Shown here piece after piece: positions 10,567-56,757 of a stretch of DNA of 64,000 bases. A model generated the notes under the pieces. The model saw nothing but the letters and a program-made list of their open reading frames with translations, was not told the DNA's origin and ran no database searches. Position 1 is the first letter of the stretch, and each line of letters starts with the position of its first letter. A program made the position numbers and the translations under genes. The stretch is taken from assembly GCA_020637165.1 (NCBI GenBank), contig JACJWN010000011.1, positions 33,744 through 97,743 on the forward strand, in the 5' to 3' direction. The stretch comes from Mycolicibacterium sp. Its GTDB lineage: Bacteria > Actinomycetota > Actinomycetes > Mycobacteriales > Mycobacteriaceae.

Positions 10567-11723
10567 GTGAGTCGAATCAGCCGGAAGGCGAGAACCTCGC
10601 CGGGATGTCGGAATCCGAACTATCCGCACTCGGCGGAAAGATCGACGGGGTCGACACCGTCTTCAAGGAGCCCCGCTGGCCGGTGGCGGGCACCCGCGCC
10701 GAGAAGCGGGCGGAGCGTCTGGTCGCATTCTGGCTGATGTTCGGCGGCCTCATGGGCCTGTTGCTGCTGGTGGTGTTCCTGTTCTGGCCCTGGGAGTGGA
10801 AGCCCTACGGCGTCAAGGGCAACCTGCTGTATTCCTGGGCCACCCCGATGTACGGGATCACCTTCGGGTTGTCGATCCTGGCGATCGGGATCGGCGCGGT
10901 GCTCTTCCAGAAGCGGTTCATCCCGGAAGAGATCTCCATCCAGGACCGCCACGACGGGCCTTCCTCGGAGTTGAACCGCAAGACCGCCGCAGCCACCCTG
11001 GTCGACGCATTCGACAGCTCGACGATCAAGCGCCGCAAGATGATCGGCATGGCCGCGGGCATCGGACTCGGGGCGTTCGGCGTCGGCACCCTGGTCGCCG
11101 GCATCGGCGGCATCATCAAGAACCCGTGGAAGCCCGTGGTGCCCACCGCCGACGGGCTCAAGGCGGTGTTGTGGACCTCGGACTGGACCCCCCGGTACAA
11201 GGGCGAGACCATCTACCTGGGCCGCGCCACCGGCCGCCCGGGTGACTCCCCCTTCGTCAAGATGCGCCCGGAGGACATCGACGCCGGCGGCATGGAGACG
11301 GTGTTCCCCTGGCGTGAGGAAGACGGCGACGGGGTCACCGTGGAATCCCACGAGCGGCTCGCCAAGGTCGCCATGGGTGTGCGCAACCCGGTCATGCTGA
11401 TCCGCATCAAACCGGTGGACATGCCCCGCGTGGTCAAACGTCAGGGCCAGGAGAGCTTCAATTTCGGTGAGCTGTTCGCCTACACCAAGGTGTGCTCGCA
11501 CCTGGGCTGCCCGTCGTCGCTGTACGAGCAGCAGACCTACCGCATTCTGTGCCCGTGCCACCAGTCGCAGTTCGATGCGCTGCACTTCGCGAAACCGATC
11601 TTCGGACCGGCCGCGCGTGCCCTGGCGCAGCTGCCCATCACCATCGACAAGGATGGATACTTGGTCGCCAACGGCGATTTCATTGAACCCGTCGGACCGG
11701 CATTCTGGGAGCGCAAATCATGA
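10563..11723 (+). CDS. qcrA: menaquinol-cytochrome c reductase, Rieske iron-sulfur subunit
   Basis: Rieske 2Fe-2S subunit, 386 aa, with the long actinobacterial N-terminus carrying three transmembrane helices (about residues 60-80, 95-115 and 165-185). Cluster motifs are CSHLGC (C311, H313, C316) and CPCH (C330, C332, H333). It takes electrons from menaquinol at the QcrB Qo site and passes them to QcrC. The ATG overlaps the qcrC stop and its own stop overlaps the qcrB start, so the three subunits are translationally coupled. Confidence 0.96.
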
Positions 11724-43749: not shown

Positions 43750-43800
43750 ATCGGCTCCATACCGTCAGCGCGAGCCTCTCAAGTGAACAGGAGTAACTAC

Positions 43801-45228
<1,428 letters not shown>

Positions 45229-45237
<9 letters not shown>

Positions 45238-45468: not shown

Positions 45469-46353
45469 GTGCGGGTCGCCAACACTGTCTTCTTCTTCCC
45501 CTGGTGGGCCCTGGTACTGCTGGCAGTGCTGCCCCCGGCCCTTGCCGCCGCGGCGGCGTTCCCGATCCGCAGGCTCATCCCGGACAGCGAGGCTGTGGTG
45601 GACGCCCGCACCAAGCTCGTCCTGCTGGGCATCAGCGCATATACGTTCACGGTGGGGTTCTCCGTCAACACCCTGTGGTATCAGGACATCGAGTTGAATG
45701 ACGCGGCACTGGCGTTCGACTTCCGGGTGAGTTTGCTGAAGGACGCTGCACAGGATCACGCCGCTGCCCTGCCGGCCGACATCGACGGGAAGATCGACGC
45801 GCTGCGACAACCGGAGGTGGTCGCCGATGCGGTATCGGTCCTGCCTCGCCAGAATGCGGCTTTCAGCCGGGCGTGGGACGAACTGAACCTCGCGTGGGCC
45901 GATGCACCGGCGGCCGCGTTGGCCGATCTCAAGACGCATGCCGACGAGGCCGAGCTGGCCTTCTACAAGCTTGCCCAATCCGCCAACTCCCCGGGTGTGC
46001 CGGGCATCATTCTCGTGGTGATCGTGCTCCTCGGGATGCTGCTCGCCGGGACGATGGTCGCAGCACCCCGAACAGCCGGGAACAGCCGCAAGGAGAACGC
46101 CGCCATTGACTGGCTGATGGTCGCGGGCGTCGCGATCATCAGTCTGACGCAGTGGGCGTTGTGGGTCCTCAACTCCAGGGACTTCGTGCTGTCGATGATC
46201 CTGCCGAACTTCGCCGGCGAGGTGCGGAGTCTCACCGCGCTCCAGTTTTCGGTCTTCGGCGCCGTTGTCCTGGCTCCGCTCCTAGGAGTGGCGGTTCTGC
46301 TGCGGTTCAGCTCGCGCCGGAGCACTCAGGACGACGTCGCCGCACACGATTGA
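45469..46353 (+). CDS. DUF4239-like integral membrane protein
   Basis: 294 aa with predicted helices near residues 8-30, 48-70, 180-202, 210-235 and 255-280 and a soluble middle section. The layout and the SAYTFTVGFSVNTLWYQDIE segment resemble DUF4239 (bestrophin-like) proteins, but the match is weak. Function unknown. GTG start with no strong ribosome-binding site. Not part of the M. tuberculosis gene order here as I recall. Confidence 0.72.
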   Translation: MRVANTVFFFPWWALVLLAVLPPALAAAAAFPIRRLIPDSEAVVDARTKLVLLGISAYTFTVGFSVNTLWYQDIELNDAALAFDFRVSLLKDAAQDHAAALPADIDGKIDALRQPEVVADAVSVLPRQNAAFSRAWDELNLAWADAPAAALADLKTHADEAELAFYKLAQSANSPGVPGIILVVIVLLGMLLAGTMVAAPRTAGNSRKENAAIDWLMVAGVAIISLTQWALWVLNSRDFVLSMILPNFAGEVRSLTALQFSVFGAVVLAPLLGVAVLLRFSSRRSTQDDVAAHD

Positions 46354-46454: not shown

Positions 46455-47105
46455 ATGAACCTGACCCCGATGGCCGTGGTGGCCGCCCTCGTCGGTACCG
46501 GCATCAGCGTCGCGATGGCCCCCGTGGCCGGTGCAGTGGATACCACCGCGCTGGGCACCTACACCTTCGAGGCCGAGGACGGCGAGAGCGCCACCTGGAC
46601 GCTGACCCCCTGCGCCGAGGAAAGCGACCGCTGCGTCCACGTCGCCTCCACCGGAAATACCAAGCGCGCGCCGTGGAGCTCCAACGCCTACTGGACGGTC
46701 GGCTCCTGGATCCTGTTCGTCGAGCAGCCCGACGCGATCCTGTGCCCGGACGGCACCTCGGCGCCCGGCAACAACAATTACTCTTGGGACGCGGTCGCGC
46801 TGACCGGCAACGCCAGCATCTTCAGCAACGGAGCCTGCGGCGCCGAACCCGAGAGCATAGCGATCCCGTTCGCACTGACCAAGACCGGCTCCGGACCGGT
46901 GCAGTACCCGACCGCACCGGTCCAGATCGAGCCCTATGTGGTCGACATTCCCGAGCCTTACGTGCCCGGCGCCGCGGAGGCTCCCCCGGTCCAGCAGATG
47001 CCGGTGGAGAATGATCCGGCGCTGAAGGCCACGCCGCCGAACATCCCCGCCCAGACCGACGAGCTGACCGAGGCCGAGGTCGCCGAGCCGGGCTTCAATC
47101 GCTGA
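46455..47105 (+). CDS. secreted Cys-containing protein
   Basis: 216 aa with a clear signal peptide (MNLTPMAVVAALVGTGISVAMAPVAGA, cleavage about residue 27). The mature part has four or more Cys (PCAEESDRCVHV, LCPDG, ACGAEP) likely forming disulfides, a beta-rich domain (TYTFEAEDGESATWTLTP) and a Pro/Glu-rich C-terminal tail. It looks like a mycobacterial secreted envelope protein. GAGGAG lies 5 nt upstream of the ATG. Function unknown. Confidence 0.82.
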   Translation: MNLTPMAVVAALVGTGISVAMAPVAGAVDTTALGTYTFEAEDGESATWTLTPCAEESDRCVHVASTGNTKRAPWSSNAYWTVGSWILFVEQPDAILCPDGTSAPGNNNYSWDAVALTGNASIFSNGACGAEPESIAIPFALTKTGSGPVQYPTAPVQIEPYVVDIPEPYVPGAAEAPPVQQMPVENDPALKATPPNIPAQTDELTEAEVAEPGFNR

Positions 47106-47106
47106 G

Positions 47107-47718
47107 TCAGACGCACTCCAGCAGGGATCCGTCGACCTCGCCAACCGCGCCGATGGTGCCGTGGACCTGAATCCTGCCGTCGGTCGAGGTGGTCGTGGCA
47201 CAGACGATCGCGCATTGGCCGGCGTCGACCCGGCGGGCAATGGCCGGGGCGCGCTCCAGTAGGGCGAGTCCGGTTTCGACGACGTGAGCCGACGTCACCG
47301 CCTCGGTGGATCCCGCGTCGACGCCGCGCCGCACGATCGAGCCGATCGCATGCTCGACGACCGCGCGGGTCGGACCGTCGGGCATCACCGCCTCGTTCCA
47401 GGCGCGCACCGCGGTGCGCATCGCGTGGCAGTCCTGGTGGCCGAGAACGACGATCAACGGCACCTCGAGACCGTTCACCGCGTAGTCCAGGGTCGCCAGC
47501 ACGCCGGTGTCGATGACATGCCCCCAGGTGCTGACTTCGATCAACGAGCCCCAGCGCTGGCCGAAGACCATTTCGCCGGGCACACCGGCGTCGGCGCAGC
47601 GGAACACCGCTGCGGGCGGAAGGTTGTCGGTCAGTCCACCACGGTGCCCGCGGACAGGCATGTGGAAGCGCTCGTTTCCGGCACGCAGGCGCTGCCAGGC
47701 GATCATCGGTTCGGACAT
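47107..47718 (-). CDS. beta-carbonic-anhydrase-like protein lacking the catalytic Arg
   Basis: 203-aa beta-carbonic-anhydrase fold protein, last gene of the DAB operon. Zinc ligands are kept: Cys41 (FRCADAG), His94 and Cys97 (GHQDCHAM), and Asp43 is present. The usual C-x-D-x-R has Gly45 in place of Arg, removing the Asp-Arg dyad that opens the active site. So it may be a pseudo-enzyme or altered enzyme, or a bicarbonate sensor. Start is supported by AAAGGA upstream. Upstream neighbour is the PII-like gene, 28 bp away. Confidence 0.85.
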   Translation of the reverse strand: MSEPMIAWQRLRAGNERFHMPVRGHRGGLTDNLPPAAVFRCADAGVPGEMVFGQRWGSLIEVSTWGHVIDTGVLATLDYAVNGLEVPLIVVLGHQDCHAMRTAVRAWNEAVMPDGPTRAVVEHAIGSIVRRGVDAGSTEAVTSAHVVETGLALLERAPAIARRVDAGQCAIVCATTTSTDGRIQVHGTIGAVGEVDGSLLECV

Positions 47719-47746
47719 TTCGGTGTTCCTTTCTCTTTTTGTGTAC

Positions 47747-48070
47747 TCAGATGAAGTAGTCGGGGCGGCTGACGAAGGTCTCGGTCACGAACATCACGCC
47801 GGAGGAGGCGTCGAGCAGCGGACGCAAACCGGCCAGCAGGGCCTCGGCCTTGGGCTCCGGCACCACCGTGATGATCAGTTCCAGGGTGGCCTGCTGGTTG
47901 AACAGCAGCCGACCCTGGTGATAGCCGTGGTGCCCGAGTCCGGAGACCCCGGACAGACTGGTGAAGCCGGTCGCGCCGACGCTGCGAATGAGTTCGCGCA
48001 CCGCCGGGGCCTCGCTTCCGGCGACGACGACCTCCACCTTGGTCATCCTGGTCAGTACTGGTGCGGTCAT
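47747..48070 (-). CDS. PII-like regulatory protein of the DAB operon
   Basis: 107-aa protein with the ferredoxin-like PII fold: KVEVVVAGSEAPAVRELIRSVGATGFT at the start, a loop in the T-loop position (GVSGLGHHGYHQGRLLF) and LELIITVVPEPKAEALLAGL. It lacks the uridylylated/adenylylated Tyr motif of GlnB/GlnK. PII-like proteins often accompany DabA and bicarbonate transporters, where they probably gate transport in response to a nucleotide or bicarbonate. The ATG overlaps the dabA stop (ATGA). Confidence 0.88.
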   Translation of the reverse strand: MTAPVLTRMTKVEVVVAGSEAPAVRELIRSVGATGFTSLSGVSGLGHHGYHQGRLLFNQQATLELIITVVPEPKAEALLAGLRPLLDASSGVMFVTETFVSRPDYFI

Positions 48071-50625
48071 GAAACCATCTCCTCATCGTGAACTGTTGTG
48101 GTGCTTGATGATTCGGACCAGTGCCGCCAGCCGGCGCGGGTCCAGCGCTGCCACGGAGCGTCGGGGTCGTCCCGGGCGGCCAGAGCCACCCATCCGTTGC
48201 CGAACAGCCGTTGCAGGATCGGGTTGCGGTCGACAATGTCCTCGATCCGCGTCAGCGGGGCCTGGACGACCGCCAGCAGTCGCATCGGCTCGTGCAGCAG
48301 GGCGCGGCCGTCGTGGACCGATTGCCAGGGCAGTCCCAACTGCAGGTCCCCGGCATGCCCCGCGATCACCCCAGCCGTCCCGACCACGTTGTGGATGGTC
48401 TTCGTCCCGGCCCCGAAGACCTGCGGCGAGACGGCCGAGAAGTAGTACTGGCAGTTGATCCACTGCGCCACCACCAGAGGTGCGGTCAGGATGGTCTCCA
48501 ATGCTGTGCCGTCGGTGTCGACATCGGCGTCATAGGAGTGCAGGAAGACCCTTCGCTGCAGGTCGATCCCGCGGGTGACCTCGCGCGGCGCGACGATGAA
48601 GGCGGCGTTGCCGGCCAGCCCCCACTCCGGGTAGACCTGCGCCCAGTCCAGCGAGCGGGTCTGCACGTGCCGTGCGGCCCGTCGAGGCGAACGCGGCCGC
48701 GCGGCTCCCGGCAGGACGGCGCACCGTTCGGCGGCCAGACTCGCACCGGCGCGGGCGAGGTCGCGGTCGAGCCGCTCGATGTCGGGGCGGTGGCTGCCGG
48801 GAACGAGGTGAAGATCCAGCAGGGCCACCCTGTCGGTGGCGGTATCGTGCTGGGCCGCAACGAACCAGGTGTCGTCCGGAATCTCGATACCGGCTTCGCG
48901 CAGTCCGGCCCGGACCTCCGGACGGTTGAGGATTGCCGTCGCGGTCCGGGCGTTGGGAGCCCCGGCCTGCCCGCCGCATGCCCCGCAGTCAAGGGAGGCC
49001 TGGTACGGATTGTTCTCGGTGCTGCTGCCGTGCGCGCAGAGCACCACCAGCTTGCCGAACCCCCTGGTCAAGCCCATCGTGGTCAGAGCCACCTGCCCGA
49101 AGAGCACCTGTTCGTCGTCGGGCATGCTCTGCAGGTCGATGACCGTCGGCACCGCTGGGGCCAGCGCATCGCGCAGCTGACGACGAACCGTACCGCTCAG
49201 CGCCGGGGCCAAGGTCTTGGCGGCGGCCAGCGGCGCGGCAGCCCAGCCGGCGGCCTCCGCGAGGGTGAACGGCGCGGCGAGGGACTCCTTGGCGGCGTGG
49301 AAGGCCGATTCGGCTCCCGCCATCCGGGCGATCCCGGACAGCCGGCGCTCTGCGGCGTCGCGGTCCCCCGGTGCCGGGTTCTCGGAGACGTCGTGATTCG
49401 GCGAGATCAGCACCGGGCACAGGTCGCTGGGCGCGCCGCCCAGAAGACCGGTGAACCGGATGGCCACCGCGAAGAACCCGGCGAAGCCGAGTGTCTGGTA
49501 CCCGCCCAGTGACTCGAGGTGGCGCCGTAGCCCCTCAGACCGGGTATCGATGCAGCTGACCAACTGGGTGTGCGCCGGCTCCGCGGCGGCCGGCCGGTCG
49601 GCGGAGTCCAGGGCACTCAGCAGCCCGTCGCGATAGTGCGCCTCGAAGGCGTTCTGCCACAACATCTCCCTGGCCGTCACCGGGAGGGCGGTGAGCACCC
49701 GGGCGGCAGCGGCGATTTCATCCTCGCCGACCTCCGTCAGGCCCCCGACCGCGGCGACATGGGCGGCACGCTGACGTGCCGACGGCATGGTCACCGACCC
49801 GTCCACTGAATGGGAGGCCACCGGTGCCCGGTCGTGAGCGAGCAGCGCGACCTCGTAGGTCAGCCGCATGGCCAGGTAGTCGACGATGTCGACTCCAGCG
49901 TTGCGTCCGGAGCACCACAGGACATGGGCCGCCCAGCCCGGCATCCGGGTCAGGTGCGCCTGCAGATATCCGATCCGTGCGTCGTCGCCGACCCCGAGCC
50001 GTGACAGCGCCTCCAGGATCGCATCGTCGGCCCGCTCGGGAACACGACGCAGATCCCGACGCACCTCGCGGCGCACCGAGCGGTCCGACGGGGCGAGCGC
50101 CCGCCACGCCGGGAAGAAACCATGCTCACGGCCGGGCATCGGCCAAGCCGCGTCGCCGAAGTAGGCCGCGCACCACTTGGCGGTCTGGGCGTCCACCGCG
50201 GCGGCGACGGCGGGCGCCCGATCCTCGGCGCGGGTCCGGAACCGCCGGCCGGCCTCGGGTGTGCCCGTTCCGAACAGCAGATCGGCGCGAAGCAACTCCA
50301 CCGGGCTCAGCGTGACCCCGCCCAGCGACAGATCCGGCCCGGCGACCAGGTTCGGATAGCGCCGCCGCAGCGCCTGATCCAGGTCGTCGTCGGTGATCCG
50401 GCCGGCCGCATGCAGTGCGCGGAAGGCCGCCTCACCGAGTGTCCCGCGGCTGCCGTACAGATCGGCCGCACGCCGGATGGCCTGCTCGAACGGCATCGAC
50501 TCCAGCCCGGCCAGCGGATTGACGGCGATAAAGGTCTCCAGGGGGTAGTGCGTGGGCACGACCCGCGCGGCCAGCGTCGCATCACTGCGCAGCCGGGCGC
50601 GCCGGGTGTCGAGATCGGCGGTCAT
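48067..50625 (-). CDS. dabA: DabA-type inorganic carbon transporter subunit (DUF2309)
   Basis: 852-aa DUF2309 protein, the soluble beta-carbonic-anhydrase-like subunit of the DAB complex that hydrates CO2 inside the cell one way to accumulate bicarbonate. All four zinc/active-site residues are present: Cys358 and Asp360 (SCIDTR), His532 (CAHGSS) and Cys547 (LDCGAC), spaced almost as in the characterised Halothiobacillus protein. The family N-terminus AVNPLAGLESMPFEQA is clear. ATG at 50625 overlaps the dabB stop; a longer reading to 50952 lies inside dabB. Not recalled at this locus in M. tuberculosis. Confidence 0.94.
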   Translation of the reverse strand: MTADLDTRRARLRSDATLAARVVPTHYPLETFIAVNPLAGLESMPFEQAIRRAADLYGSRGTLGEAAFRALHAAGRITDDDLDQALRRRYPNLVAGPDLSLGGVTLSPVELLRADLLFGTGTPEAGRRFRTRAEDRAPAVAAAVDAQTAKWCAAYFGDAAWPMPGREHGFFPAWRALAPSDRSVRREVRRDLRRVPERADDAILEALSRLGVGDDARIGYLQAHLTRMPGWAAHVLWCSGRNAGVDIVDYLAMRLTYEVALLAHDRAPVASHSVDGSVTMPSARQRAAHVAAVGGLTEVGEDEIAAAARVLTALPVTAREMLWQNAFEAHYRDGLLSALDSADRPAAAEPAHTQLVSCIDTRSEGLRRHLESLGGYQTLGFAGFFAVAIRFTGLLGGAPSDLCPVLISPNHDVSENPAPGDRDAAERRLSGIARMAGAESAFHAAKESLAAPFTLAEAAGWAAAPLAAAKTLAPALSGTVRRQLRDALAPAVPTVIDLQSMPDDEQVLFGQVALTTMGLTRGFGKLVVLCAHGSSTENNPYQASLDCGACGGQAGAPNARTATAILNRPEVRAGLREAGIEIPDDTWFVAAQHDTATDRVALLDLHLVPGSHRPDIERLDRDLARAGASLAAERCAVLPGAARPRSPRRAARHVQTRSLDWAQVYPEWGLAGNAAFIVAPREVTRGIDLQRRVFLHSYDADVDTDGTALETILTAPLVVAQWINCQYYFSAVSPQVFGAGTKTIHNVVGTAGVIAGHAGDLQLGLPWQSVHDGRALLHEPMRLLAVVQAPLTRIEDIVDRNPILQRLFGNGWVALAARDDPDAPWQRWTRAGWRHWSESSSTTTVHDEEMVS

Positions 50626-52160
50626 GAACGTCCTCCTGTCGGTAGCGGAGCCGGCACTGGAGCCGGTTCTGGAGAGATGTGCCCGGCGCTCAACGCGCCG
50701 GCGTAGAGAGCCCGTTGCAGCCAGACCGCCCCGCGGCTGCGTCGCACCACGGCCAGGGCCCCCAGAGCGACCAGGGCGGTGGCGGTGAGCAGCCAGACGC
50801 TCGTGGCGGACAACCCCACCGGGGGAAGCGCGGGTGCCAGAAACCCGCTGAGGGCTCCGATGATTCCCACGTAGCTCGCGGCGGCGGCGGCCAGGACCGC
50901 CAGCCCCGCGAGTGCCGCGGCAGGGCCGGGGCGACGCCGGAGCCAGCCCCACATCACCGCGGCGCCGGTGACCCAGGCGAAGATCAGCAGGGCCTGCTCG
51001 GCGGCGTGGTCACCGGCCGGCATCGGCACCGCCGCGAGAGCGAGTCCCAGTGCCAGCGCCGGGAGGATGACCGCTGCCGACGCGCGAACGAGGCGTTCCC
51101 GGCCGGACGGCGCTGCTGCCGGGGGCAGCGCTTCCCGGCGGCGGTGCCGGGCGATCGCCGAACCGGATGAGAGGAACAGGGTCGCCTTGTAGAAACCGTG
51201 GGCGAACAGGTGGATCACCGCCGCCGCCCACAACCCCAGACCGCAGGTCAGGATCATGAACCCCATCTGGGCGGTGGTGGAATGCGCCAGCTCACCTTTG
51301 ACATCGGGTTTGACCAGCATCACGGTCGCGCCGTAGATCATGGTGGCCGCGCCGGCCGCGATGGTGAGGGCGCGAGCCAGGTCGTCGGTGCTCAGCGGGG
51401 CCAGGCGGATGAGCAGGATGCCGCCGGCGTTGACCACGCCCGCGTGCAGCAGGGCCGATACCGGCGTCGGCGCCGCCAGCGTTGCGGGCAGCCAACGGTG
51501 GAAGGGGATCTGCGCGGACCGCGACAGCGCGGCCAGAACCACCAGGATGCCGAGTACGGGCACGAGCATGCCCTCGACCTGAGCGTTCGCTCCCAGCTCG
51601 ATTCGCCCCCAGGTCGCGGTCGCCAGCACCACCGCTGTCCAAAGGGCGAGGTCGCCGATCACGAAAGCGGTCGCGGTGCGGCGCACGCCGTCACGGGCGG
51701 CGGGCAGCTGCCAGTAGGTGGCCAGCAGCAGGCACAATGCCAGCCCGGCCAGAGTCCAGCAGCCAGCGAGGGTGATCAGGGTTCCCGCTGCGGTCAGTCC
51801 GGCCGATGCCGCGGTGAGCAGGCCCGCGCCGCCGGCGAACCAGGCCGCGCGGGGGTCGCCGGCCAGGTAGCGAACCGCGAAGGTCTGCACGATGGCACTG
51901 ACCCCGAACACCAGCAGCAGCAGTACCGCCGTCAGCCGGTCGACTCGGAACTCGGCGGCGCCCAGGGCCGCCGCGGCCTGCTCGCCGCGCCCCGCGCCGG
52001 CGGCGAGCAGGGCTGCGCCCAGAAACCCGACGCCCGCCGTGAGTGCCCCAAGCCGCACCATGAACCAGGGGGCACGCCGTCCAACCGCAAATGCCAGCAC
52101 CGCAGTGATCGCCGGGGCGGTCAGGATCGCCGCCAGCACTGCGCTCTCGGGAATCAACAT
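50622..52160 (-). CDS. dabB: DabB-type cation/proton-coupled membrane subunit
   Basis: 512-aa NuoL/MrpA-like membrane protein with about 13 helices, the membrane partner that energises DabA with a cation or proton gradient. Typical antiporter-like sequences include PFHRWLPATLAAPTPVSALLHAGVVNAGG and KGELAHSTTAQMGFM, with Lys in FYKATLFL on helix 8-type positions. There are no other NADH dehydrogenase genes nearby, which argues against a complex I subunit. First gene of the operon; start appears leaderless, with the ATG 1-2 nt after the expected transcription start. Confidence 0.93.
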   Translation of the reverse strand: MLIPESAVLAAILTAPAITAVLAFAVGRRAPWFMVRLGALTAGVGFLGAALLAAGAGRGEQAAAALGAAEFRVDRLTAVLLLLVFGVSAIVQTFAVRYLAGDPRAAWFAGGAGLLTAASAGLTAAGTLITLAGCWTLAGLALCLLLATYWQLPAARDGVRRTATAFVIGDLALWTAVVLATATWGRIELGANAQVEGMLVPVLGILVVLAALSRSAQIPFHRWLPATLAAPTPVSALLHAGVVNAGGILLIRLAPLSTDDLARALTIAAGAATMIYGATVMLVKPDVKGELAHSTTAQMGFMILTCGLGLWAAAVIHLFAHGFYKATLFLSSGSAIARHRRREALPPAAAPSGRERLVRASAAVILPALALGLALAAVPMPAGDHAAEQALLIFAWVTGAAVMWGWLRRRPGPAAALAGLAVLAAAAASYVGIIGALSGFLAPALPPVGLSATSVWLLTATALVALGALAVVRRSRGAVWLQRALYAGALSAGHISPEPAPVPAPLPTGGRS

Positions 52161-52167
52161 GCGATGA

Positions 52168-52197
52168 ACAATACGTTGGTTTGACTTCGTGTGTCAA
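52168..52197 (-). promoter_or_regulatory. promoter of dabB operon
   Basis: On the minus strand TTGACA (52197-52192), 18-bp spacer, TATTGT (52173-52168). The predicted transcription start is within a nucleotide or two of the dabB ATG at 52160, so the mRNA would be leaderless. No ribosome-binding site is present to contradict this. Confidence 0.65.
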
Positions 52198-52199
52198 AC
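52179..52199. promoter_or_regulatory. 21-bp inverted repeat overlapping the dab promoter
   Basis: GTTTGAC (52179-52185) and GTCAAAC (52193-52199), a perfect 7-bp inverted repeat with a 7-bp spacer. It covers the -35 element and half of the spacer, so a bound protein would block RNA polymerase. No regulator gene lies next to it in this window. Confidence 0.6.
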
Positions 52200-52250
52200 T
52201 TCCTGATTGTTAATTCTTGTTACATAAATGTCGCGTTGGACTTCATGGAA

Positions 52251-52270
52251 CTCCCGGCTAGCGCCGGGAG
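52251..52270 (-). terminator. second hairpin between glnE and dabB
   Basis: 8-bp stem CTCCCGGC (52251-52258) with GCCGGGAG (52263-52270), 4-nt loop. It lies in the glnE-dabB gap (52161-52406), which otherwise holds only the dab promoter and the glnE hairpin. Possibly a backup terminator. Confidence 0.4.
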
Positions 52271-52385
52271 CAGGCGTGTGGAAGAACTTGGTTGGTGAGG
52301 CGTCCTCAATCAACCACGCCGCCGAACGCCCAGCTCAGCGAAGCGCCGGCAAACAATTCGATGCCGGTGTGAGGATCCATCCGAC

Positions 52386-52405
52386 GGCCGGGATCGAGCC
52401 CGGCC
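52386..52405 (-). terminator. hairpin after the glnE stop
   Basis: Perfect 7-bp stem (52386-52392 with 52399-52405) and 6-nt loop, starting 1 bp after the glnE stop codon at 52407. It separates glnE from the dab operon, which runs in the same direction. Confidence 0.55.
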
Positions 52406-52406
52406 C

Positions 52407-55376
52407 TCAGCCGCCGAAGACGTTGGTCACCACGGCCTTCGCACGCCGGGTGACCCGCAGATAGTTGTCCAGGAAAGCCCCGCCATCGCCATCCGGCCAA
52501 CCGGCTGCCACCGCCACCGCGTTGAGCTGCCGGCCAGGGCCGGGCAGCTGATCGGTCGGCTTGCCCCGAACCAGGACCAGGGCGTTGCGGGCCCGGGTCG
52601 CCGTCAGCCAGGCCTGATGGAGTTGATCGGCGTCGGCCTGCGGGATCAGCCCGGCCTCAGCGGCGGCGGCCAGCGCCGCCAGGGTCGAGGTGTTGTGCAA
52701 CCCGGGCACCTCGTGGGCATGACGAAGCTGCAGAAGCTGCACGGTCCACTCGACGTCGGCTAGTCCGCCGCGACCCAATTTGGTGTGGGTGTTGGGATCG
52801 GCCCCCCGGGGCAGCCGCTCGGCGTCCACCCGGGCCTTGATCCGGCGGATCTCACGCACCGCCTCGGCGGAAACCCCGCCCTCCGGGTAACGGGTCCGGT
52901 CGGCCAGTTTCAGGAACCGCACGCCGAGGTCGGGATCGCCGGCCACCGCATGTGCCCGCAGCAGCGCCTGAATCTCCCAGGGTTGCGCCCACTGGGCGTA
53001 GTAGGCCGCGTAGGAACCCAGCGTGCGCACCAGAGGACCGCTGCGCCCCTCTGGTCGCAGGTTCGCGTCCACCTCCAGCGGCGGGTCGTCGCTGGGCGCC
53101 CCGAGCAGGGCGCGCAACTGCTCGGCGACGCTGACCGACCACTTCACCGCGCGGGTCTCGTCGGCCCCCTCGACCGGCTCGCAGACGAACATCACGTCGG
53201 CGTCGGAACCGTAGCCCAGTTCGCCGCCGCCGAGCCGGCCCATACCGATCACCGCGATCCTGGCCGGCGGCCCGGCCTCGGGGGTGTTGGCTCGGATCAC
53301 CGCCTCCAGCGCACACTGCAACACCGCCACCCACACCGACGTCAGCGCCGCGCATACCTGCTCGACCTCGAGCATGCCCAGCAGGTCCGCCGAGGCGATC
53401 CGGGCCAGTTCCCGGCGGCGCAGGGACCGCGCCGCGGCGATCGCCCCCGCCGGGTCCGGATGCCGCCCGGCCGAGGCGATCAGCGCCCGGGCGACCGCAT
53501 CGGGATCGACGTCGAGCAGCTTGGGTCCGGCCGGGCCGTCCGCGTACTGCTGGATCACCTCGGGTGCGTGCATCAACAGCTCCGGCACGAATGCCGAGGT
53601 GCCCAGCACCCGCATAAGGCGTTTGGCCACCGCGCTCTCGTCCCGCAGCGTGCTCAGATACCAGCGGTGATCGGCTAGGGCCTCACTGATCCTCCGGTAG
53701 GCCAGCAGTCCGCTGTCCGGATCGGGGGTGTCGGAGAGCCAGTCCAGCAGCCGCGGCAGCAGAACGGCCTGCACCCGTCCGCGGCGGCCGCTGGAGTTCA
53801 CCAGCACCGACAGGTGGGTCAGCGCACTCTGCGGACCCTCGTAGCCCAGCGCCGCGAGCTGGCGTTCGGCGGCCACCGGCGACAATCCCGGCGCGAACCC
53901 CAGCGATGAGCCCACCGACTCCAGAAGCGGTTGGTAGAACAGCTTGGCGTGCAGTTTGGACACCCGCACGTTCTGGCGTTTGAGCTCCTCCCGCAGCACC
54001 CCAAGCGCATCGTGGGTGCCGTCCGGCCGCATGTGTGCGGCCCGGGCCAGCCAGCGCATCGCCTCGTCGTCGTCCGGCGGCGGCAACAGGTGGGTCCGCT
54101 TGAGCCGCTGCAGCTGCAGTCGGTGCTCGAGCAGGCGCAGGAATTCGTAGGAGGCGGTCAGGTTGGCGGCGTCGTCGCGGCCCACGTAACCGCCGGTTCC
54201 CAACGCCGCCAGCGCGTCGACCGTCGAGGCGACGTGCAACGAGGAGTCGGTTCGCCCGTGTACCAGTTGCAACAGCTGCACGGCGAACTCGACGTCGCGA
54301 AGTCCCCCGGGCCCCAATTTCAGCTCGCGATCGCGAACGTCCACCGGAACCAACGACTCCACCCGCCGCCGCATCGCCTGCACCTCGGACACGAAGTCCT
54401 CCCGGTCGCAGGCGGTCCAGACCATCGGCATCAGGGCGTCCATGTACCGCTGGGCCAACTCGGCGTCGCCGACAGCTGGGCGGGCCTTGAGCAGCGCCTG
54501 GAATTCCCAGGTCTTGGCCCATTTCCGATAGTAGGCGATATGGGAATCGCAGGTGCGCACCAGCGCACCCGCCTTGCCCTCCGGCCGCAGGGCGGCGTCG
54601 ACTTCGAAAAACGCCTCCGAGGCCAGTCGCATCATCTCCCCCGCCACCCTGGTGGTGAGCGGTTCGGCGTTCTCGCCGACGAAGATCACGTCGACGTCGC
54701 TGACGTAGTTCAGTTCCCGTGCCCCGCACTTGCCCATCGCGATGACGGCCAGCCTCGGCGGCTCGGCGTCTTTGCAGACCGTCGCGACGGCCACCTCCAA
54801 GGCGGCCTGCAGCGCGGCGTCGGCCAGATCCGCGAGGTGCTCTCCCACGGCGGGAAACTGCAGCACCGGCTCGTTCTCCACCGTCGGAGCCACATCGAGC
54901 GCGGCCAGGATCAGCAGCTGTTCGCGGTAATGACTACGCAACTTCGGCACGATAACCGTTGGCTCCGTGCCGAATTCGGCAATGCAATCGGAGAAGCCGC
55001 GGCGCAGATCGTCCCGGCCGGGGAGCCGCGCCGCACCTTCCAGGACGTGCCATGAATGCGGGTGGGCCACCAGGTGGTCGCCGAGAGCCAGCGACGAGCC
55101 GAGCACCGCGAACAGCCTGCCGCGAAGGGTGCGGTCGGTCTGCAGCGCCGCATCGAGCAGCGGCCAGTCGTCGCCCAGTGCCTCGGACAGCCGCACCAGG
55201 GTGTGCAGCGCGATATCGGCATCGGGTGCGCGCGACAGCGACCACAGCAACTCGATGTGCGCGTCGCTGTTCCAGCCCAGCCGGGCCAGGTAGCCGGGCG
55301 CGGCGGGTTCCAGCAGCCCCAGACGGCCCACGCTGGGCAGACGGGGACGCTGCGTCGCTGGTCTGGACACGCCCAT
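52407..55376 (-). CDS. glnE: glutamine synthetase adenylyltransferase / adenylyl-removing enzyme
   Basis: 989-aa bifunctional enzyme that adds and removes AMP on Tyr406 of GlnA1. Two nucleotidyltransferase domains are seen, the N-terminal deadenylylase with YVSDVDVIF and the C-terminal adenylylase with [10 protein letters not shown], each followed by a conserved ALRPEGK or NLRPEGR block. The length matches the recalled M. tuberculosis protein (994 aa). It is essential in M. tuberculosis by published reports. Together with glnA2 downstream on the same strand, 40 bp apart, it forms a nitrogen-control pair. Confidence 0.96.
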
Positions 55377-55416: not shown

Positions 55417-56757
55417 TCAGAGCGACAGATAATTCCGGAGCTCGAACGGGGTGACGTTGGAGCGGTAGTCCTCCCACTCCGCGCGCTTGTTACGCAGGAA
55501 GTAGTCGAAGACGTGCTCCCCGAGCGCCTCCGCGACCAGCTCGGAGTTCTCCATCTCGCCCAACGCCACGCCGAGGCTCGACGGGAGCTCCCGGTACCCC
55601 ATCGCCCGGCGCTCGTCACGGGTGAGTGTCCAGACGTTGTCCTCGGCCTGCGGGCCGAGGACATAGTTCTTCTCGATCCCCCGCAACCCGGCCGCCAGCA
55701 GCACCGCGAAGGTCAGGTAGGGGTTACAGGCCGAATCCGGGCTGCGCACCTCGATGCGACGGGAAGATGCCTTGCGCGGGGTGTACATCGGCACCCGCAC
55801 CAGCGCCGAGCGGTTGGCCGCGCCCCAGGACGCCGCGGTCGGGGCCTCGCCGCCGTGCACCAGACGCTTGTAGGAGTTCACCCACTGGTTGGTGACCGCG
55901 CTGATCTCGGTGGCGTGCTCAAGGATGCCGGCGATGAATGATTTGGCGACCTCCGAGAGTTGCAGAGGGTCATCGGGGCTGTGGAAGGCGTTCGTCTCGC
56001 CCTCGAACAGGCTCATGTGGGTGTGCATGGCCGAACCGGGATACTCGGCGAACGGCTTGGGCATGAACGACGCCCGCACCCCCTCGGCGAGGGCAACCTC
56101 CTTGACCAGGTAGCGGAAGGTCATCACATTGTCGGCCATCGACAGCGCGTCGGCGTAGCGCAGGTCGATCTCCTGCTGGCCCGGGGCGCCCTCGTGGTGG
56201 CTGAACTCGACCGAGATGCCCATCTGCTCGAGCGCGTCGATGGCGTGCCGGCGGAAGTTGGGCGCCGAATCGTGCACGGCCTGGTCGAAGTAGCCGCCAT
56301 TGTCGGCCGGTACCGGCACCGAGCCGTCATACGGCCCCGCCTGTAGCAGGAAGAACTCGATCTCCGGGTGGACGTAGCAGGAGAAGCCGAGATCGCCGGC
56401 CTTGGCCAACTGGCGGCGCAGCACATGCCGGCTGTCCGCCCATGACGGGGAACCGTCCGGCATGGTGATGTCGCAGAACATCCGCGCCGAGTGGTGCTGG
56501 CCGGAACTGGTGGTCCACGGCAGCACCTGAAAGGTCGACGGGTCGGGCCGCGCCACGGTGTCGGACTCGAAGACCCGGGCAAAGCCCTCGATCGAGGATC
56601 CGTCGAAGCCGATGCCCTCCTCGAAGGCGCCCTCGAGTTCGGCGGGCGCAATCGCGACCGACTTCAGGTATCCGAGCACATCGGTGAACCACAGCCGGAC
56701 GAAGCGGATATCCCGCTCCTCCAGTGTGCGCAGCACGAATTCCATTTGCCGATCCAT
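55417..56757 (-). CDS. glnA2: glutamine synthetase, GlnA2 type
   Basis: 446-aa GSI-alpha type enzyme, shorter than GlnA1 and without the adenylylated Tyr sequence (residue region reads NYVLGPQAEDNVW). Active-site blocks IGFDGSSIEGF, HPEIEFFLL, SHHEGAPGQQEIDL and PGSAMHTHMSLF are intact. It gives Gln from Glu and NH3, although GlnA2-type enzymes in some actinobacteria act on other amines. A GTAAC-n6-TTAAC half-site pair (56780-56795, minus strand) upstream resembles half of a GlnR box. Confidence 0.94.
   Translation of the reverse strand: MDRQMEFVLRTLEERDIRFVRLWFTDVLGYLKSVAIAPAELEGAFEEGIGFDGSSIEGFARVFESDTVARPDPSTFQVLPWTTSSGQHHSARMFCDITMPDGSPSWADSRHVLRRQLAKAGDLGFSCYVHPEIEFFLLQAGPYDGSVPVPADNGGYFDQAVHDSAPNFRRHAIDALEQMGISVEFSHHEGAPGQQEIDLRYADALSMADNVMTFRYLVKEVALAEGVRASFMPKPFAEYPGSAMHTHMSLFEGETNAFHSPDDPLQLSEVAKSFIAGILEHATEISAVTNQWVNSYKRLVHGGEAPTAASWGAANRSALVRVPMYTPRKASSRRIEVRSPDSACNPYLTFAVLLAAGLRGIEKNYVLGPQAEDNVWTLTRDERRAMGYRELPSSLGVALGEMENSELVAEALGEHVFDYFLRNKRAEWEDYRSNVTPFELRNYLSL

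Follow-up and report, generated by a model that had tools for sequence, protein, structure and literature searches.

Why a mycobacterium should carry a DAB-type operon, and why this operon should end with a gene resembling a carbonic anhydrase (CA), are the questions raised by a stretch of 64,000 nucleotides from Mycolicibacterium sp. (GCA_020637165.1, contig JACJWN010000011.1), hereafter the window. On its minus strand dabB, dabA, a PII-like gene and a CA-like gene form one operon, located between glnA1 and glnE. With moderate confidence we regard it as a complete actinobacterial DAB operon that would supply bicarbonate to a heterotrophic mycobacterium, and in which the CA-like protein would be a largely non-catalytic accessory of DAB. 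DAB complexes are being investigated as vectorial carbonic anhydrases, but the searchable literature says little about the proteins that accompany them. Three testable candidates for DAB control emerge from the present analysis: a remodelled CA restricted to DAB, a PII protein of the carboxysome-associated (CPII) type, and a recurrent winged-helix gene together with a rigid, putatively leaderless promoter. Among the papers listed by our literature search none dealt with mycobacterial DAB or with a DAB-linked CA-like protein; since most subscription journals and all preprints lay outside this search, it is weak evidence.

The CA-like gene (47107-47718, minus strand) encodes a DAB-associated, beta-CA-like protein of 203 amino acids. 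Its family membership, already proposed in the initial annotation, was confirmed (Pro_CA, 74 bits), but the label "carbonic-anhydrase-like" conceals that the catalytic Arg has been lost: at the site of the C-x-D-x-R motif of active beta-CAs, the window protein reads C-A-D-A-G, with Gly45 in place of the Arg. The beta-CA fold, the zinc ligands Cys41, His94 and Cys97, and Asp43 are present, while the Asp-Arg dyad is absent. Replacement of this Arg in an archaeal beta-CA, studied by Smith in 2002, is said to have caused large losses. The dyad orients the Asp for catalysis (PMC3230598). The nearest solved relative is the canonical mycobacterial CA Rv3588c (PDB 2a5v, 1ym3; about 40% identity). Compared with this type, the CA-like protein lacks the catalytic Arg, does not keep a conserved Gln and has new features at four positions, namely Arg40, Ser63 and Trp65, replacing the canonical Gly, Arg and Ala, and Trp107.

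The same remodelling could be followed in 106 CA-like sequences, one per locus, which were merged into 73 distinct copies. The catalytic Arg was missing in 68 of the 73, and position 45 was occupied by 12 different residues. Trp107 and His94 were both invariant (73/73), and the zinc ligands and Asp43 were kept in more than 90% of the copies. These proteins form a separate clade which, among 297 sampled genomes of the genus, occurred in 63 of the 66 DAB-positive and in none of the 231 DAB-negative ones (0/231); co-occurrence counts are given here without correction for shared ancestry. The gene stood beside 55 of the 56 congeneric DAB loci having 1.5 kb of room downstream, the exception being a broken locus in genome G074. 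Six loci of the genus are without a CA-like row (L134, L152, L153, L154, L155, L163), and for three of them (G032, G287, G106) the gene was found on another contig. The ratio of nonsynonymous to synonymous substitutions (dN/dS) between pairs of CA-like genes was at most 0.76, with a median of 0.37, thus the gene is under purifying selection. Since the Arg has been lost, the protein is found only alongside DAB in the sampled mycobacteria and selection is retained, a role other than ordinary catalysis is suggested, and the CA-like protein is probably a remodelled, non-catalytic accessory of DAB.

It might be supposed that the gene is merely a decaying hitch-hiker on the DAB operon, as the former catalytic positions change fast and dabA itself is broken in two genomes (G165, G074), the second of which has lost the PII-like and CA-like genes from its locus. 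Nevertheless, the dN/dS values well below 1, which we count as refuting, the clade-specific invariant residues Trp107 and His94, and the presence of the gene at practically every locus with downstream room, apart from the broken one, make this very improbable. The two broken loci (L151 in G165, L155 in G074) have dabA split in two pieces, and the split together with the gene loss at L155 indicates that DAB decays in some lineages. The dabA rows of both were included in the dN/dS alignment, and that of L151 in the DabA tree, where they may add noise.

A more serious alternative, although we consider it unlikely, is that the CA-like protein is still an enzyme, either with a changed mechanism or with another substrate (e.g. 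COS or CS2), in which Arg40 replaces the lost Arg. Against this, both Cys zinc ligands were lost in five genomes in which the gene was still under purifying selection, COS hydrolase ranked far below Rv3588c as a match, position 45 is occupied by 12 different residues, and the column holding Gln in 25 of 25 canonical CAs held it in only 13 of the 73 CA-like copies, in a gappy region. The zinc-less proteins (L158, L168, L171, L173, L174) fall in one DabA clade, and their genomes are five of the ten sampled in the genus in which DAB and RuBisCO occur together, which may reflect ancestry only. They offer a natural test of whether the CA-like protein acts without catalysis.

Several observations weigh against a non-catalytic accessory. 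The kept zinc ligands and Asp43 could mean altered, rather than lost, catalysis. Four loci (L126, L136, L147, L149) have both C-x-D-x-R and H-x-x-C intact, and catalysis may survive there. When L159 is counted as well, the Arg needs 4 changes on the family tree, so loss or regain occurred at least twice. Outside the genus, the examined loci mostly have DAB without an adjacent CA-like gene. Finally, the source genome encodes three further beta-CAs in which the Arg is kept (CADSR, CADSR, CMDAR), therefore the removal of one CA would be insufficient alone to stop bicarbonate loss. This last point concerns the argument, made by Fan et al. (PMC8552792), that bicarbonate imported by a transporter would be dissipated by a CA, which would favour the loss of catalysis in a DAB partner; with three canonical CAs in the same genome, that argument alone carries little weight.

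As to how a non-catalytic accessory could work, the CA-like protein, rebuilt round its active site but retaining the CA fold and, in most copies, the zinc site, might serve DabA as a regulator or docking partner that responds to bicarbonate or CO2. A CA working freely in both directions beside a one-way hydration pump would drain the bicarbonate made, and the loss of catalysis would end this conflict. A wider proposal, which we put forward only tentatively, is that DAB of mycobacteria is a machine of three or four proteins, one of them a former CA which, without its catalytic Arg, and in one clade without its zinc Cys residues, serves as a dedicated non-catalytic subunit or bicarbonate sensor gating a proton-driven CO2 hydratase, as a bacterial beta-class counterpart of the catalytically inactive CA-related proteins of animals; a second genus may have done likewise independently. 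In one genome (G320) of that other genus of the family, an open reading frame (ORF) straight after dabA (L185:9641-10408) encodes a CA-like protein about 30% identical to that of the window and reading CCDLT and AHEPC; this single case hints that Arg-less CA homologues can be recruited into DAB operons. Another arrangement was seen at L159 (G026), near 11413 and 12248, where two tandem CA-like genes with different active-site losses follow the PII-like gene; the second copy alone was scored. The structure prediction of the CA-like protein was built on 55 sequences, 18 of which are canonical CAs.

The DAB core itself is well preserved. The product of dabA (48067-50625, minus strand; 852 amino acids, PF10070 at 818 bits), the beta-CA-like subunit for vectorial CO2 hydration, matched DabA2 of Halothiobacillus neapolitanus (PDB 9rd0_A) at E 1.7e-116. 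We compared 21 DabA2 residues that are tested or highlighted in the 2026 cryo-electron microscopy paper on DAB2 (PMC13144422), and 19 of them were identical: C351, D353, R355, S356, F375, A376, F378, E444, H524, C539, H585, D590, L629, W656, L658, H684, I700, A703 and P704 in DabA2 numbering. Both the zinc site and the proton-path Glu are included; C358, D360, R362, H532, C547, E457 and L670 are among the identical residues in window numbering. It had been stated from the first inspection that the zinc residues of DabA are intact, and C358, D360, H532 and C547 do align with C351, D353, H524 and C539. The two differences are Tyr665 in place of the tunnel-gate R653, where 62 of 63 genus rows have Tyr or Phe, and Ala708 in place of V696.

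DabB (50622-52160, minus strand; 512 amino acids), the antiporter-like membrane subunit (PF00361, Proton_antipo_M, 116 bits), was aligned to DabB2 (9rd0_B), and 8 of 11 residues discussed in that paper were identical, including Ser, His and Lys residues of the proton path: S256, H260, K310, S316, H339, H343, K347 and D185, which are S235, H239, K288, S294, H317, H321, K325 and D170 in the window. The differences are I151 to T136, R182 to V167 and K235 to R214. The kept positions of the DAB core are conserved genus-wide, single exceptions or gaps aside. A DabA with zinc ligands and Asp-Arg dyad is thus encoded next to a DabB with proton-path residues, and the profile matches, the alignment to 9rd0 and the operon layout together support the assignment to DAB.

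Alanine substitutions at the zinc ligands and the Asp-Arg dyad of DabA2, R355A among them, impaired growth (PMC13144422); because these residues are kept, the DabA of this operon should be active. From the residue conservation with DAB2 we infer the mechanism, namely that DabB would pass protons inward down the proton motive force and DabA would spend that energy on one-way hydration of CO2 to bicarbonate at the buried zinc site. DabAB could instead be a cation-bicarbonate symporter, as proposed for MpsAB of Staphylococcus aureus (PMC13144422, PMC8552792), rather than a proton-driven CO2 hydratase. We find this improbable, since the zinc site, the Asp-Arg dyad and the finger Glu (E444) required by DAB2 are all kept, and DAB2 itself had no sodium requirement (PMC13144422). 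Other shared features with DAB2 are S356, H585, D590 and L658; unlike DAB2, the window operon has an extra CA-like gene and its genome has no RuBisCO match.

The latter point bears on the purpose of the operon, which had initially been annotated as CO2-concentrating. The DAB identity is the supported part of this description, but the concentration of CO2 is not borne out: no match to the RuBisCO large chain (PF00016) was found in the source genome, which is 94% complete, and in the genus the large chain occurred in 42 of 297 genomes, with 10 of the 66 DAB-positive and 32 of the 231 DAB-negative ones (Fisher p = 0.84). Autotrophy, or a RuBisCO-linked CO2-concentrating mechanism, was rejected on these grounds. 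Because RuBisCO was not matched and DAB does not track it, supplying a heterotroph with bicarbonate is the most likely function of the operon, and bicarbonate supply is the better term. The possibility that DAB is the sole source of bicarbonate was also rejected, in view of the three other Arg-bearing beta-CAs.

DAB-type systems are already known in heterotrophs, several being named in PMC13144422, and DAB homologues were reported in Actinobacteria, with absence from M. tuberculosis H37Rv, in PMC6689103. MpsAB, likened here by its description in PMC6689103 and PMC8552792, is a two-gene DAB-type bicarbonate supply in a heterotroph; the window operon differs in its PII-like and CA-like genes and in a genome with three canonical beta-CAs. 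DabA was detected in 66 of the 297 genus genomes, the source genome included (58/275 of the near-complete ones), in 11 of 251 genomes of a family-wide draw, of which 7, including one with a partial match, belong to other genera, and in 19 of 231 genomes of a class-wide draw.

The PII-like gene (47747-48070, minus strand) had been suggested as a possible link of carbon supply to nitrogen state, owing to the position of the operon in the glutamine synthetase locus. Its product of 107 amino acids belongs to the PII family (PF00543, 62 bits), and it is nearer to CPII than to GlnB or GlnK: the closest solved structures are CPII (5d4n, E 1.2e-17) and relatives at about 1e-17, and the best canonical PII in the PDB is 2gw8, E 0.27. 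CPII is a carboxysome-associated PII-like protein, regulated by and responsive to bicarbonate. The window protein shares with it G44, G46, G49, G53, F57, N58, R102 and P103, and among 63 distinct DAB-linked relatives the motifs GVSGLGHxG, GRLLFN and VSRP are conserved. Two differences were noted: CPII has Met where the DAB-linked relatives have Tyr50 (89%), and the protein here is linked to dabBA. Judging from its family, it would work as a CPII-type sensor of bicarbonate and/or adenine nucleotides, and could thereby tune the DAB complex.

The genomic site was scored within the fetched stretches, loci L001-L030 having been replaced by longer fetches, with the exception of L001 (the window). 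Among the 66 congeneric DAB loci, the window included, glnE or glnA1 was visible in 22, a canonical beta-CA lay beside the operon on the opposite strand in 15, and neither site was seen in 29. Of these 29, 7 are less sure, their flanks being shorter than 5 kb upstream or 3 kb downstream. On the DabA tree the genus copies split into a part with the canonical-CA site and another in which the glnE site recurs, with 7 changes for glnE and 4 for the CA site (a quick tree with some long branches). These counts and changes show that the glnE site is recurrent and not a fixed trait, and we regard the position beside glnE as incidental. In favour of coupling to nitrogen state, in the window and its two nearest kin dabB lies 201-246 bp downstream of glnE in the same orientation, and no winged-helix gene stands between them. 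However, the same cassette with its PII-like gene stands beside a canonical CA or away from glnE elsewhere, even on a plasmid, the PII-like protein is of CPII type and dabB has its own predicted promoter, so we judge the coupling quite unlikely and did not uphold it.

The plasmid in question is a mobilizable one of 23.7 kb in M. aubagnense (NZ_CP122998.1, L178), carrying dabB, dabA, PII-like and CA-like genes. It also bears winged-helix, TerC, CBS and DUF6671 genes, and its CA-like gene is annotated as carbonic anhydrase, a label that the sequence alone, short of an assay, does not justify. Relatives of DUF6671 and TerC were found near 30 and 18, respectively, of 84 examined DAB loci.

Upstream of the window dabB, a putative leaderless promoter (52168-52197, minus strand) consists of TTGACA (-35, 52197-52192), an 18-nt spacer, TATTGT (-10, 52173-52168) and 7 nt before the ATG, a spacing by which translation would probably start at or beside the first transcribed base. 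The pattern TTGACn-18-TAnnnT-7-RTG, composed after inspecting the same loci, preceded dabB in 63 of 66 loci, with 0.0 expected from dinucleotide shuffles, and the window dabB is predicted to retain its own promoter.

A MarR-like winged-helix gene lay within the fetched stretch of 56 of the 66 genus DAB loci (e.g. L135:12897-13193; L126:14010-14393). In 55 of these it is encoded on the strand opposite to the operon; of the 56, 38 have it upstream of dabA and 18 downstream of the operon. It also occurs near DAB in Rhodococcus, Nocardia, Amorphoplanes, Microcella and Microbacterium, but at the Dactylosporangium copy none was found nearby. Among the first 60 genomes of the genus, all 15 DAB-positive ones had a match at E 1e-20 or better, as did 4 of the 45 DAB-negative ones, so the association of this family with DAB is not strict. 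We infer that its product is a candidate DAB regulator. No such gene was found in the window, where the glnE-dabB gap (52161-52406) is 246 bp; the kin loci L114 and L166 also have short gaps (201-233 bp), and L134, L154 and L169 lack the gene too, but with gaps of 1.0-1.9 kb. Loss of an operator along with the gene was not supported, as the window spacer shares 11 of 18 positions with the consensus, and the winged-helix-positive loci share 8-17. One unlinked homologue is present in the source genome, at C23, with neighbours resembling, by eye, acyl-CoA dehydrogenase and acetyltransferase.

The layout first described, four coupled genes in one direction between glnA1 and glnE, agreed with the ORF coordinates, the Pfam matches and the flank profiles. 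The proposed ATGA overlaps correspond to 4-nt overlaps at dabB/dabA and dabA/PII-like, and the PII-like and CA-like genes are 28 nt apart. Outside the cassette stand glnE, the adenylyltransferase gene (52407-55376, minus strand; NF010707, 1410 bits), glnA2 (55417-56757, minus strand) and the glutamine synthetase gene glnA1 (43783-45237, plus strand; PF00120, 457 bits); the labels glnA1 and glnA2 we take from the gene order of M. tuberculosis. The operon does not touch glnA1, because two plus-strand ORFs intervene, one at 45469-46353 and the other ending at 47105. Third-position GC of the four operon genes is 0.84-0.87, similar to glnE (0.87). The source genome comprises 3.85 Mb in 32 contigs, and the nearest named copies returned were those of the Mycobacterium metagenome-assembled genomes HKST-UBA35 (95% DabA identity) and HKST-UBA37 (92%).
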